Assembly (NCBI GenBank): GCA_029975555.1
Contig: JARKOY010000105.1
Span: forward strand, 1-64,000
Length of the DNA stretch: 64,000 nt
Reading direction: 5' to 3'
Origin: Spirochaetia bacterium
GTDB taxonomy: Bacteria; Spirochaetota; Spirochaetia; Treponematales; Rectinemataceae
Positions 18,197-34,080 of this stretch are shown here, one piece after another. The notes under the pieces were generated by a model that worked only from the letters and a program-made list of their open reading frames with translations, ran no database searches and was not told where the DNA came from. Each line of letters starts with the position of its first letter. Position 1 is the first letter of the stretch. The translations under genes and the position numbers were made by a program.

Positions 18197-19741
18197 ATGG
18201 AAACGATAGAATTCCCCGAGACGCTCACAGGGCTTCACATTCATCTTGTGGGTGCGAAAGGTACCGGCATGACGGCCCTGGCAGAAATTCTGCACAGCAG
18301 GGGGGCACTGCTTACAGGCAGCGATGTGGCCGACGTATTCTACACCGACAGCATCCTTCATTCCCTTGATGTCAGACTTTTTGAGAATTTCGACGCTCAG
18401 CATGTGCCTGCAAACGCCGACCTGGTCATTTACTCAGCCGCATATTCACAGGATGCGAACCCAGAGCTTAAGACGGCCATACAGCGCCATATTCCCATTT
18501 TCAGTTATCCACAGGCCCTCGGCGCGCTTTCGCGCCACAGCAGATCCGCCGGCGTAGCAGGGGTGCACGGCAAAACGACGACGACCGCACTGGCTGGCAT
18601 TCTTATGGAAGCGCTCTCGATGCCCGCCACCGTCCTTGCAGGATCGGCGATCTCAAATTTCAACAGCCGCTGTACGCTCATTCGGGGAGACGATTATTTC
18701 ATCGCCGAAACGTGTGAATACCGCAAGCATTTTCTCAACTTCAAACCATCGTGGATCGTGCTCACCTCGGTGGAGAGCGACCATCAGGACTATTTTCCGA
18801 CTTATGAGAGCATCAGAGATGCCTTTGTAGAGTATGTCCTCACGTTGCCCGAGGATGGCGTCCTCATCTTCTGCGCAGACCAGCCGGGTGCCGTCGAAGT
18901 GGCAGACATTGCCCTACAAAAGAGAAAAAATATAAGATTTGTAGAGTACGGCTTTTCGGCAAAAGGGAAATATAAAATCAGGGATTTTCAGCCAGAGGCG
19001 GGCACCAACACCTTTGCAGTGAGCGATGCGCCTGCCATCCTCCAGCTCCACGTGCCGGGTCGACACCTGGTGCTGGATGCCGTCGCCGCGATTGCGCTGG
19101 CCGATTCGATTTTCGAGGCACAGACATCGCGGGGCTTCGGCAGAGAGGAGTGGAACCGTATCGCCACGGCGCTCGCATCCTTCCGTGGTTCAAAACGTCG
19201 CAGCGAAATAATCGGCGAGTTCGAAGGTGTTCTGATTCTGGACGATTATGGCCACCATCCCACGGCAATACGGGCCACCATCGAGGGAATCAAAAAGTTT
19301 TGGCCGCACAGGCGCCTCGTGGTGGACTTCATGTCGCACACCTACACGAGGACAATCGCCCTGCAGGACGATTTTGTCGCCTCTCTGGATGGGGCAGACG
19401 CCGTTGTCATGCACAAGATATATTCCTCCGCGCGCGAGCAGCCCATTCCAGGATTCGACGGCAAAACGCTCTTCTGTAAGCTCTGCGAACGGAGAGTCGA
19501 CCTTGTGCCGATAGGCCTTGAACCTATCACCGAAAATCTGGCGACACCAGGCCAAACCTCACATGGCAGAGCCTTAGACAGGGGTTTTGCCTTATACAGC
19601 GAAGAACCGCTGGATGCATGCGACATGCTGCTGGATATCCTTCGTCCGGGCGACATCTTCCTCACCATGGGGGCAGGAGATAACTGGAAATTAGGTAAGG
19701 CCATTGCAGACCAACTGAGGGCCCAGGAGCACCATCTATGA
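18197..19741 (+). CDS. murC: UDP-N-acetylmuramate-L-alanine ligase (MurC-like)
   Basis: This 514-residue Mur ligase adds the first amino acid of the peptidoglycan stem peptide. It has the N-terminal UDP-binding glycine motif (GAKGTGM near residue 20), the ATP loop GVHGKTTTT near residues 121-129, the central AETCEYRKHFL segment, and DDYGHHPTAI in the C-terminal domain. The last motif is shared with Mpl, but the C-terminal ligase domain and first-in-operon position favour MurC. It overlaps yicC by 4 bp. Confidence 0.88.
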   Translation: METIEFPETLTGLHIHLVGAKGTGMTALAEILHSRGALLTGSDVADVFYTDSILHSLDVRLFENFDAQHVPANADLVIYSAAYSQDANPELKTAIQRHIPIFSYPQALGALSRHSRSAGVAGVHGKTTTTALAGILMEALSMPATVLAGSAISNFNSRCTLIRGDDYFIAETCEYRKHFLNFKPSWIVLTSVESDHQDYFPTYESIRDAFVEYVLTLPEDGVLIFCADQPGAVEVADIALQKRKNIRFVEYGFSAKGKYKIRDFQPEAGTNTFAVSDAPAILQLHVPGRHLVLDAVAAIALADSIFEAQTSRGFGREEWNRIATALASFRGSKRRSEIIGEFEGVLILDDYGHHPTAIRATIEGIKKFWPHRRLVVDFMSHTYTRTIALQDDFVASLDGADAVVMHKIYSSAREQPIPGFDGKTLFCKLCERRVDLVPIGLEPITENLATPGQTSHGRALDRGFALYSEEPLDACDMLLDILRPGDIFLTMGAGDNWKLGKAIADQLRAQEHHL

Positions 19742-20604
19742 AGAGCATGACAGGCTTCGCACACCACACGATTTCAGAACATGGCATTCAGGGCATGATA
19801 ACGCTGAAATCCTACAACAACCGCTTTTTGGACATTGCGGTGTCTCTTCCGCCCGCCGCGTCCGCCATTGAGCCATATGTGCGCGATTTTTTAGGATCTC
19901 GCATCGCGCGCGGCAAGATAGAATGCACGTTCAAACTCAAAAAAGTGGAAGTCTCTCTCGAAGATATTGCGCTTCACTTTCAATCTGCGAAGATGCTTTC
20001 GGAACAGCTGAGAAGCCTCGCCGAAGCATGTCAGATAGAAGATAGCCCCACACTCGACATTCTCACCCGTTTCCCAGGCATTGTCGAGATGAATATGGAT
20101 ATCGACGAAGCCGGTCTGTGGCAGATACTGTCGCCCGCACTGGAAGAGACGTGGCGCGAATTCGAGGAGAGCAGGGTGCGCGAAGGTGTTGCGACCGAGG
20201 CGAATATCATGCGCCAGTTGGAGAGGTTCCAGACGAAACTGGCAGAGATAGAGGCAAAAGCCGATACTCTCGAGCAATTGGTGCACGACCAGATCGTGGC
20301 CCGTTTTAAGGAACTGCTTGCAGAAGAGTACGACGAAAGCCGCGTGCTCCAAGAGGTCGCCGTGCAGCTCGTGAGGCTCACCATCAATGAAGAGATCGAG
20401 CGCCTCAAGGCCCACCTTGAGGCGTTTCGGTCCATGTCGGCCCAGCCCTGCTGCGGCAAAAAACTTGATTTTCTTTGTCAGGAGATGAACAGGGAAGTGA
20501 ACACCATCGGCTCCAAAAACATGCTCGTGACAATTTCGCACGCAGTGGTCGAGATGAAGGACGCGCTCGAGAATATTCGAGAGCAGCTCAGAAATGTGGA
20601 GTAA
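19738..20604 (+). CDS. yicC: YicC family endoribonuclease-like protein
   Basis: This 288-residue protein belongs to the YicC family, members of which have endoribonuclease activity. It shows the family's beginning MKSMTGFAH and the end motif EMNREVNTIGSKN near residues 248-260, with the DUF1732 C-terminal region. The middle is helical and charged. The start overlaps the murC stop (ATGA) and has AGGAGC 8 nt upstream. It sits in a murC-yicC-kinase-SDR string. Confidence 0.93.
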   Translation: MKSMTGFAHHTISEHGIQGMITLKSYNNRFLDIAVSLPPAASAIEPYVRDFLGSRIARGKIECTFKLKKVEVSLEDIALHFQSAKMLSEQLRSLAEACQIEDSPTLDILTRFPGIVEMNMDIDEAGLWQILSPALEETWREFEESRVREGVATEANIMRQLERFQTKLAEIEAKADTLEQLVHDQIVARFKELLAEEYDESRVLQEVAVQLVRLTINEEIERLKAHLEAFRSMSAQPCCGKKLDFLCQEMNREVNTIGSKNMLVTISHAVVEMKDALENIREQLRNVE

Positions 20605-20611
20605 CCTGACG

Positions 20612-21130
20612 ATGGGTATCATCGCTATATCGGGCAAGGCAGGCTGTGGCAACACCACGGTGCTCCATCTTGTTGCGGAGAAGCTTGGCTTTGAGCCTAT
20701 AAATTACACTTTTCGCTCAATGGCCGCAGACATGGGCATACCGTTTGAAGAGCTTTTGAAAAGGGCACAGGAGAACCTTGAGTACGACCGCATGCTCGAC
20801 GCACACCAGGCCATGCTCGCACGGAAGGGAAACACGGTCATCGGCTCAAGGCTCGCAATCTGGATGGTGCCGGAAGCAGACCTCAAGGTGTACCTCAAGG
20901 CGAGTCACGAGGTCCGCGTGCGGCGGATCCATGCGCGCGAAGGAGGAGACCTTGCGAGTATAGAACAGTTCACTCGAGAGAGGGACGCGAGGGACCGCAG
21001 CAGATATCTTACGCTTTACAACATCGATATCGATGACTTTTCCTGCGCCCATCTCGTAATCGATACCGAGCGCTGGTCGGCAGTGCAGATCGCACAGATC
21101 ATTGCGGAAGCCTATACTGTGGCGAAGTGA
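20612..21130 (+). CDS. Cytidylate kinase-like protein with altered P-loop
   Basis: This 172-residue protein resembles the short archaeal-type cytidylate kinase-like family. The P-loop reads GKAGCGNTT at residues 8-16: the usual Walker A lysine is Asn14, and a Lys occurs at position 9 instead. Downstream are IGSRLAIWM and the lid-like RIHAREGGD and RDRSRYLTLYNID segments. A canonical cmk is present at 33.4 kb, so this is not the sole CMP kinase; its substrate is uncertain. The start at 20612 has GGAG 9 nt upstream, 7 nt after yicC. Confidence 0.78.
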   Translation: MGIIAISGKAGCGNTTVLHLVAEKLGFEPINYTFRSMAADMGIPFEELLKRAQENLEYDRMLDAHQAMLARKGNTVIGSRLAIWMVPEADLKVYLKASHEVRVRRIHAREGGDLASIEQFTRERDARDRSRYLTLYNIDIDDFSCAHLVIDTERWSAVQIAQIIAEAYTVAK

Positions 21131-32648: not shown

Positions 32649-33409
32649 AGACGTCCGAAGACAAGCCAATTCGTCTGCACGTGTTTCTCGCCTCAGCCGG
32701 CATTGCATCTCGACGGGCCTGCGAAGAGATGATCCGGCAGGGGAGAGTACTCGTCGACGGCAAAACTGCCACCATTGGGCAAAAAATATATGGCATTGAA
32801 ACAATAGAGGTGGATGGACGTCCTGTCGAAATCTCCGCTCAACGATCTTTTCGCTACATCCTCCTCAATAAGCCCAAAGGATACCTCTCTTCCGTGAGAG
32901 ATCCAGAGGGCCGCCCCTGTGCGATCGATCTCATCGCAAAGGGCGTAAAAGAGCGACTCTACAATGTCGGAAGGCTCGATCAGTGGTCGAGCGGTCTTTT
33001 GCTCTTTACCAACGACGGAGAACTGGCCTCGAGGCTCATGCACCCTTCGAGCGAGGTGGAAAAAGAGTATCTGGTGCAAACCGATGCACCTCTCCCAGAG
33101 AGCTTTGCCCAGAACTTCGTCCGGGGCATTCTCTGTGAGGGCATTCGGTATCGTGCCCGCGCCGTGCGCCTTCTGGCGCCAGATAAGGCACTGATAGTGC
33201 TCATCGAGGGGAAAAACCGGGAGATACGCCGAGTGTTGGAACACTTTGGCCTGCGCGCGATGTCCCTGGAACGCATCAGGATAGGGCCTGTTAAGGATGC
33301 CAGCCTGGCGCCAGGACAGTGGAGAGACTTAACTGAGGAAGAAGTGCGTGCACTCAAGCGCATCGCCAATCCTGAAAACGACCACAGGAATAAAGGAAAA
33401 CAAAGATGA
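32645..33409 (+). CDS. rluB: RluB-type 23S rRNA pseudouridine synthase
   Basis: This 254-residue RsuA/RluB-family enzyme converts a uridine in 23S rRNA (position 2605 in E. coli for RluB). It has an N-terminal S4 domain (about residues 9-55), LLNKPKGYLSS, and the catalytic GRLDQWSSGLLLFTNDG with its Asp near residue 111. GKNREIRRVLEHFG near the end is a family motif. It overlaps scpB and cmk by 4 bp each, so translation is coupled. Confidence 0.92.
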   Translation: MKTSEDKPIRLHVFLASAGIASRRACEEMIRQGRVLVDGKTATIGQKIYGIETIEVDGRPVEISAQRSFRYILLNKPKGYLSSVRDPEGRPCAIDLIAKGVKERLYNVGRLDQWSSGLLLFTNDGELASRLMHPSSEVEKEYLVQTDAPLPESFAQNFVRGILCEGIRYRARAVRLLAPDKALIVLIEGKNREIRRVLEHFGLRAMSLERIRIGPVKDASLAPGQWRDLTEEEVRALKRIANPENDHRNKGKQR

Positions 33410-34080
33410 AGGTAGCGATCGATGGACCGGCCGGGGGAGGCAAATCGACGATTGCGCGGATGATTGCAGAGAATTTTGGATTTTTGTATATCAACTCCGG
33501 CAACCTCTACCGTGCGGTGACATATCTGGCCCTGCAAGAAGATGTCTGTTGGCAAGACAGCCAGGCTATGATTGCGCTTGTACAGCGGCACCACTTCGAT
33601 TACCGACCCGACGGCGCGGTTGAGGTCGATGGCAAGCTCTTAGCAGGAGAGCTGCGCAGTCCACAGGTCGATGCAATCGTCTCACAGGTTTCGGCAATCC
33701 CAGAAATCCGCGCTCAAGTCAACTCGATTATCCGGTCTATCTCCGAAGGAAAAGATGTTGTAAGCGAAGGCCGCGACATCACCACGGTCGTCTTCCCCGA
33801 TGCGGAGATAAAACTCTATCTTGATGCCTCTGCAGAGATCAGGGCGGAGCGGCGCTTCAGAGAACGACTTGCCCAGAAGGTCTCGGATATCCCTCCTCGC
33901 ATTGAGGATATACGGAAGAACATAGAAATGCGAGACGCCCTCGATGCACAGAAAACCGTCGGAGCGCTTAAAATTGCACAAGATGCCATATATTTGGACA
34001 CTTCAGACTTGACCATACAGCAAGTTTATGAGAAAGTATACAAAATTTTAAGGGCAAGGATTGCACATGGCAGAAAATAA
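33406..34080 (+). CDS. cmk: Cytidylate kinase
   Basis: This 224-residue kinase phosphorylates CMP and dCMP. It has the canonical P-loop GPAGGGKST at residues 7-15, the substrate motif INSGNLYRAVT, and SEGRDITTVVFPDAEIKLYLDAS. Length matches bacterial Cmk. It is the orthodox counterpart of the P-loop-altered protein at 20.6 kb. It overlaps rpsA by 14 nt, the widespread cmk-rpsA pairing. Confidence 0.95.
   Translation: MKVAIDGPAGGGKSTIARMIAENFGFLYINSGNLYRAVTYLALQEDVCWQDSQAMIALVQRHHFDYRPDGAVEVDGKLLAGELRSPQVDAIVSQVSAIPEIRAQVNSIIRSISEGKDVVSEGRDITTVVFPDAEIKLYLDASAEIRAERRFRERLAQKVSDIPPRIEDIRKNIEMRDALDAQKTVGALKIAQDAIYLDTSDLTIQQVYEKVYKILRARIAHGRK

Follow-up and report, generated by a model that had tools for sequence, protein, structure and literature searches.

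Gene context and family placement of cmk2

The window (the whole stretch of DNA analysed, 64,000 nucleotides of contig JARKOY010000105.1 from a Spirochaetia bacterium) contains, at 20612–21130 on the plus strand, an ORF of 172 aa that we confirmed as real and refer to as cmk2; from its TIGR02173 score, class distribution and predicted CMK fold, it is a TIGR02173-type NMP kinase paralogue, which we propose to be a guanylate kinase. An alternative in-frame ATG lies upstream at 20594, and the start at 20612 is supported by relative L002, whose open frame begins at the equivalent codon. The gene run is opened by murC (Mur ligase by Pfam; 18197–19741, plus strand), which has a 4-base overlap with yicC (Pfam PF03755/PF08340; 19738–20604, plus strand), whose stop lies 7 bases before the cmk2 start, confirming the placement after murC and yicC given in the first-pass annotation of this DNA. 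On the 3′ side lie genes for an SDR, an aldose epimerase and a release factor, with neither rpoZ nor miaA following, and a scan for promoters and terminators gave signals near chance. The normal cmk that had been placed at 33.4 kb is indeed present (33406–34080, plus strand; 205 bits against TIGR00017, cut-off 135.6), with its Walker A Lys and cytosine-reading Arg102 and Asp124 intact, upstream of an ORF that by eye resembles ribosomal protein S1.

Against TIGR02173, the NCBIfam model for archaeal-type (d)CMP kinases, cmk2 scored 137.1 bits (cut-off 102.1), and against Pfam PF13189 (Cytidylate_kin2) 70.6 bits (gathering cut-off 28). Its score against the bacterial cmk model TIGR00017 was below cut-off (41.8 bits; cut-off 135.55), and the guanylate kinase models PF00625/TIGR03263 gave no match up to E 1. 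An AlphaFold (AF2) model from a 13-row alignment predicts a CMK fold (pLDDT 94), with fold comparison (VIA) yielding Z 18.0–18.3 to 2h92 and 7l4a and Z 18.0 to 3hdt; this CMK-like fold also resembles those of shikimate and APS kinases. Likeness to PF13189 thus extends to both Pfam score and a close predicted fold; structures 3hdt and 3fdi, which we take to belong to this family, are titled putative kinase or uncharacterized protein, and we know of no link between PF13189 and the gmk slot described below.

A conserved P-loop without the Walker A lysine

The cmk2 P-loop (G8-K-A-G-C-G-N14-T-T, preceded by Ser7; 20633–20659, plus strand) has Asn14 (codon 20651–20653) at the position of the Walker A Lys, with Lys9 five residues earlier, as had been noted from the sequence. 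We examined both positions in 84 non-redundant relatives, obtained from 115 phmmer-matched ORFs (E 1e-5) by retaining those with E below 1e-30 and dropping duplicates, all of them from the class of the window (Treponema, Rectinema and Borrelia-like genomes) or from named spirochete records. Residue 14 is Asn in 83/84 and Ser in the other, and Cys12 is invariant (84/84), so that Asn14 is neither a sequencing error nor a chance change. Thus, relatives do keep the Asn, whereas the early Lys is not conserved, being present in 72/84 and replaced elsewhere by S, L, R, A, P or M. Since the 12 relatives without Lys9 keep the Asn, the case envisaged in the first-pass annotation as refuting, in which Lys9 takes over from the missing residue as a trivial variant, is weakened, and Lys9 as a general stand-in for the Walker A Lys is ruled out. 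Deviant Walker A proteins of the MinD/ParA type have a signature Lys early in the motif, at a position corresponding to that of Lys9, and keep a second Lys; cmk2 differs from them in that its early Lys is not conserved.

Beyond what had been noted earlier, cmk2 has also lost the acidic residue of its E/D-[G/S]-R motif. In cmk2 this motif reads G78-S-R80-L81 (20843–20854, plus strand), and residue 78 is Glu/Asp in none of the 84 spirochete rows (Gly in 65, as in the window, Ala in 18 and Ser in one) versus all 31 of an archaeal comparison set (the 30 best archaeal loci, L120–L149, plus L011; one pair identical). Shared with the archaeal-type proteins are D59, D63, R80, R102, R105, R109, R124 and R131, these six arginines being invariant in 84/84 spirochete rows, and Arg35 is present in 58/84. 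Apart from Cys12, Asn14 in place of Lys/Thr and Gly/Ala/Ser in place of Glu/Asp at residue 78, cmk2 differs from the archaeal-type proteins in having a loop (31–34, before Phe34) shorter by one residue and in coexisting with a canonical cmk. Bacterial cmk has the fold and phosphate arginines in common with cmk2, which lacks, however, the Walker A Lys, the cytosine-reading Arg and Asp (N14, D59 and L81 being found instead) and the NMP insert. Among archaeal copies the Walker A Lys is kept in 20/31 and is Thr in 11/31, and all of the latter retain the motif acid (Glu), so that loss of the Lys recurs in the TIGR02173 family.

Across ten close pairs, dN/dS was 0.07–0.11 in the four with dS up to 1.04 and about 0.05 in two with dS above 2, the other four being saturated. 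These low values indicate that cmk2 is under purifying selection and, together with the conservation described above, rule out a decayed pseudogene.

Complementary distribution of cmk2 and gmk

Among 392 genomes of the phylum searched, cmk2 matches were found in 212/214 of the class, whereas outside it only 7/178 matched the cmk2 protein, the best with E 6.7e-7. We then compared the distribution of gmk (TIGR03263) in 385 genomes, 207 of the class and 178 outside, with the class split counted from individual rows: no class genome (0/207) scored over the cut-off, versus 164/178 outside the class. Of the outside genomes, 167 match gmk with an E-value of 3e-17 or lower, and the remaining 11 are all at most 85% complete. 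Inside the class, 25 rows appeared in the gmk search, the best at 2.9e-24 (G304) and the other 24 at E 7.6e-5 or weaker. PF00625 was not found in the genome of the window itself, and in 16 chosen genomes its one match was that in G304, which we rejected as a normal gmk because it corresponds to a fusion of NT5C (5′-nucleotidase) and a partial guanylate-kinase-like segment at the end of a draft contig (L170, 898–1875). Two drafts without cmk2 (G341 and G348; 92% and 94% complete) are also without PF00625.

Canonical cmk is present in 206/207 class genomes, G351 being the one without a match, so CMP phosphorylation is covered in the class; this bears out the earlier view of cmk2 as a CMK-related paralogue that need not make CDP. 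In several small Borrelia-like genomes, the canonical cmk match contains one TAA, which is probably just the native stop codon, close to where the match ends.

Outside the class, both genomes of a small group, f40 (G024 and G035; L168–L172), lack gmk and have canonical cmk as well as a TIGR02173-like gene, the latter with Lys (2/2) and Asp intact and a C-terminal extension, whereas two classmates of f40 have gmk and no TIGR02173 match. In a 75-row tree, the 35 class rows form one group (99/94) and f40 is set apart from them; a single clade was not rejected by the AU test (p 0.265), which therefore does not support f40 as an independent gmk replacement.

cmk2 lies in the genomic slot of gmk

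We read 16 gmk regions from genomes outside the class, of which 15 carry yicC before gmk and/or rpoZ or miaA after it, the exception being L153, with none of the three nearby. In seven of the 16, the start of yicC is no more than 1.2 kb before gmk, RpoZ and/or MiaA follow in 12, and the full order yicC-gmk-rpoZ-miaA occurs in two (L152 and L165). Inside the class, the order is instead yicC-cmk2-rpoZ-miaA: at the 47 loci analysed, yicC directly precedes cmk2 in 43, rpoZ follows in 16 and miaA (IPP transferase) in 18, and no gmk was found at any of them. The small downstream ORF at these loci fell just under the cut-off of the RNA polymerase omega model (73.5 bits; cut-off 76) and scored 22.9 bits against Pfam Rpb6 (cut-off 26). 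Comparison of gene order inside and outside the class thus shows cmk2 in the position of gmk. The envelope or RNA role to which proximity to murC and yicC had been taken to hint is not borne out, since this context is the gmk slot of a yicC-gmk-rpoZ-miaA cluster, and as such points to GMP phosphorylation. In the T. pallidum-like genome G056 (L096), no yicC was found between murC and cmk2, and the next gene encodes an HhH-GPD (MutY-like) glycosylase. The position of cmk2 at 366 kb of this 1.1-Mb genome, ahead of a DNA-glycosylase gene, agrees with the gene table in PMC6953169 and underlies the T. pallidum-like label; the Borrelia-like label comes likewise from gene positions, cmk lying near 124 kb and cmk2 near 865–876 kb of about 0.9 Mb, as compared with BB_0128 and BB_0819 of strain B31.

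Residues predicted to face the base and the phosphates

In Thermus CMP kinase, according to PMC7259600, cytosine is contacted by Ser33, Arg107, Asp127 and Gln178, with Tyr37 stacking, and the phosphate is handled by Lys15, Arg126, Arg153 and Arg171. By motif counting rather than by a solved alignment, Arg107 and Asp127 correspond to Arg102 and Asp124 of the canonical cmk in the window. In hhalign, Asp59 of cmk2 (20786–20788, plus strand) lies opposite Arg102, which would read cytosine N3/O2, and Leu81 opposite Asp124, which would read cytosine N4, while Arg80 and Arg124 are kept. Residue 59 is Asp in all spirochete (84/84), archaeal (31/31) and f40 (2/2) rows. An acid facing the base would be a better partner for guanine, with its N1-H and N2 amino group, than for cytosine, and a reference title in PMC4177761, describing mouse guanylate kinase E72Q/D103N as a functional adenylate kinase, fits a reading of guanine by acids in Gmk. 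Nonetheless, D59 and L81 may not signify guanine, as they are common to archaeal relatives believed to be CMP kinases.

A probable replacement guanylate kinase

We consider it probable that the class uses cmk2 as its GMP kinase, and that this non-orthologous gene displaced gmk in gmk's own slot and works without the Walker A Lys. The observations behind this reading are conservation, distribution, gene order, the residues lost and kept, and the fold prediction. In particular, it accords with the complementary occurrence of cmk2 (212/214) and gmk (0/207 versus 164/178), the shared slot, the equally gmk-less f40 with its cmk and TIGR02173-like gene, the coexistence of canonical cmk, the replacement of cytosine-reading residues, the purifying selection on cmk2, and the dispensability of the Lys suggested by the archaeal Thr variants. 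Also in line with it is a Borrelia metabolic model, which gives adk (BB_0417) for dGMP kinase and places BB_0819 under CMP kinase (PMC10734484). cmk2 would then resemble Gmk in genome slot (yicC to rpoZ/miaA) and reaction, unlike its sequence, which the Gmk family models do not match. An archaeal-type NMP kinase may have replaced canonical gmk in its operon slot in the class ancestor, with loss of gmk. The enzyme, on its CMK-like fold, would transfer phosphate from ATP to (d)GMP, and we infer that it could do so without Lys and motif acid, with the P-loop amides, Asn14, Thr15, R80, R102, R105, R109, R124 and R131 holding the phosphates. Guanine would be read by acids of the NMP-binding helix, for which the invariant D59 and D63, in place of the cytosine-reading Arg and Asp, are the best candidates.

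Several points weigh against a GMP kinase: a kinase that has lost its Walker A Lys together with the motif acid is often dead, NCBIfam names the family (d)CMP kinase, f40 and most archaeal rows retain the Lys, the AU test gives no support for a separate replacement in f40, rpoZ and miaA are not 3′ of the gene in the window itself, and Adk or another kinase could make GDP. The last of these enters the unlikely alternative that cmk2 is a second (d)CMP/UMP kinase, with a promiscuous adenylate kinase acting on GMP. TIGR02173 being an equivalog with a (d)CMP kinase name, the CMK fold of the model and the same Borrelia gene assignments would all suit such an enzyme, but a canonical cmk is already present in nearly every class genome, the cytosine-reading Arg and Asp have been replaced, and a redundant enzyme need neither occupy the gmk slot nor track the loss of gmk.

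Slightly less probable still is a pseudokinase that binds nucleotide but is catalytically dead, acting next to YicC and RpoZ in regulation or in an RNA-linked role. Loss of both catalytic hallmarks under strong conservation would suit it, and yicC, encoding an RNase, is the most constant neighbour of cmk2; yet all the phosphate-handling arginines are retained in every spirochete row, the archaeal copies that also lack the Lys keep the acid, and the gmk gap would stay unexplained. Least probable of all, a kinase for some other nucleotide or small metabolite, lying in this slot by coincidence while another GMP kinase is encoded elsewhere, finds some backing in the likeness of the fold to shikimate and APS kinases but sits poorly with a slot and a distribution that both match gmk loss.

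GMP kinase is required for all GTP and dGTP synthesis, and the class without a recognizable gmk is taken to include the Lyme and syphilis spirochetes. For the missing activity cmk2, which family databases and a metabolic model annotate as a CMP kinase, is one candidate, and our searches of open-licence papers turned up none that assigns a guanylate kinase to these spirochetes. If cmk2 does phosphorylate GMP, a metabolic gap in these pathogens would be filled, and an NMP kinase would work despite having lost its motif acid as well as its Walker A Lys.

Archaeal relatives

In control genomes, gmk and bacterial cmk each matched 10/10 bacterial and 0/4 archaeal ones, and TIGR02173 scored over its cut-off in exactly the four archaeal controls. 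None of 60 archaeal genomes scored over the cut-off for gmk or cmk, so that these genomes do not separate GMP from CMP roles. Six of them (G402, G405, G420, G421, G440 and G444) have no TIGR02173 match better than E 2.8e-8 and no match to gmk or cmk, and are either incomplete or have another enzyme. According to PMC4177761, the gene encoding the archaeal guanylate kinase was still unidentified in 2014, and the TIGR02173 family is the obvious candidate; confirmation of a GMP kinase function for cmk2 would provide a lead to it. A broader and more tentative possibility, to which we give roughly a third of our confidence, is that all of TIGR02173 consists of guanylate kinases, or of kinases for both GMP and CMP, and represents the archaeal guanylate kinase. 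After transfer to spirochetes, the gene would have taken over the site of gmk, and its product would later have adapted to function with Asn in place of the Walker A Lys and with the motif acid gone. The division among controls, with gmk and cmk in bacteria and TIGR02173 in archaea, is in line with this possibility, as is the occurrence of Asp59 in place of the cytosine-reading Arg throughout the archaeal rows.
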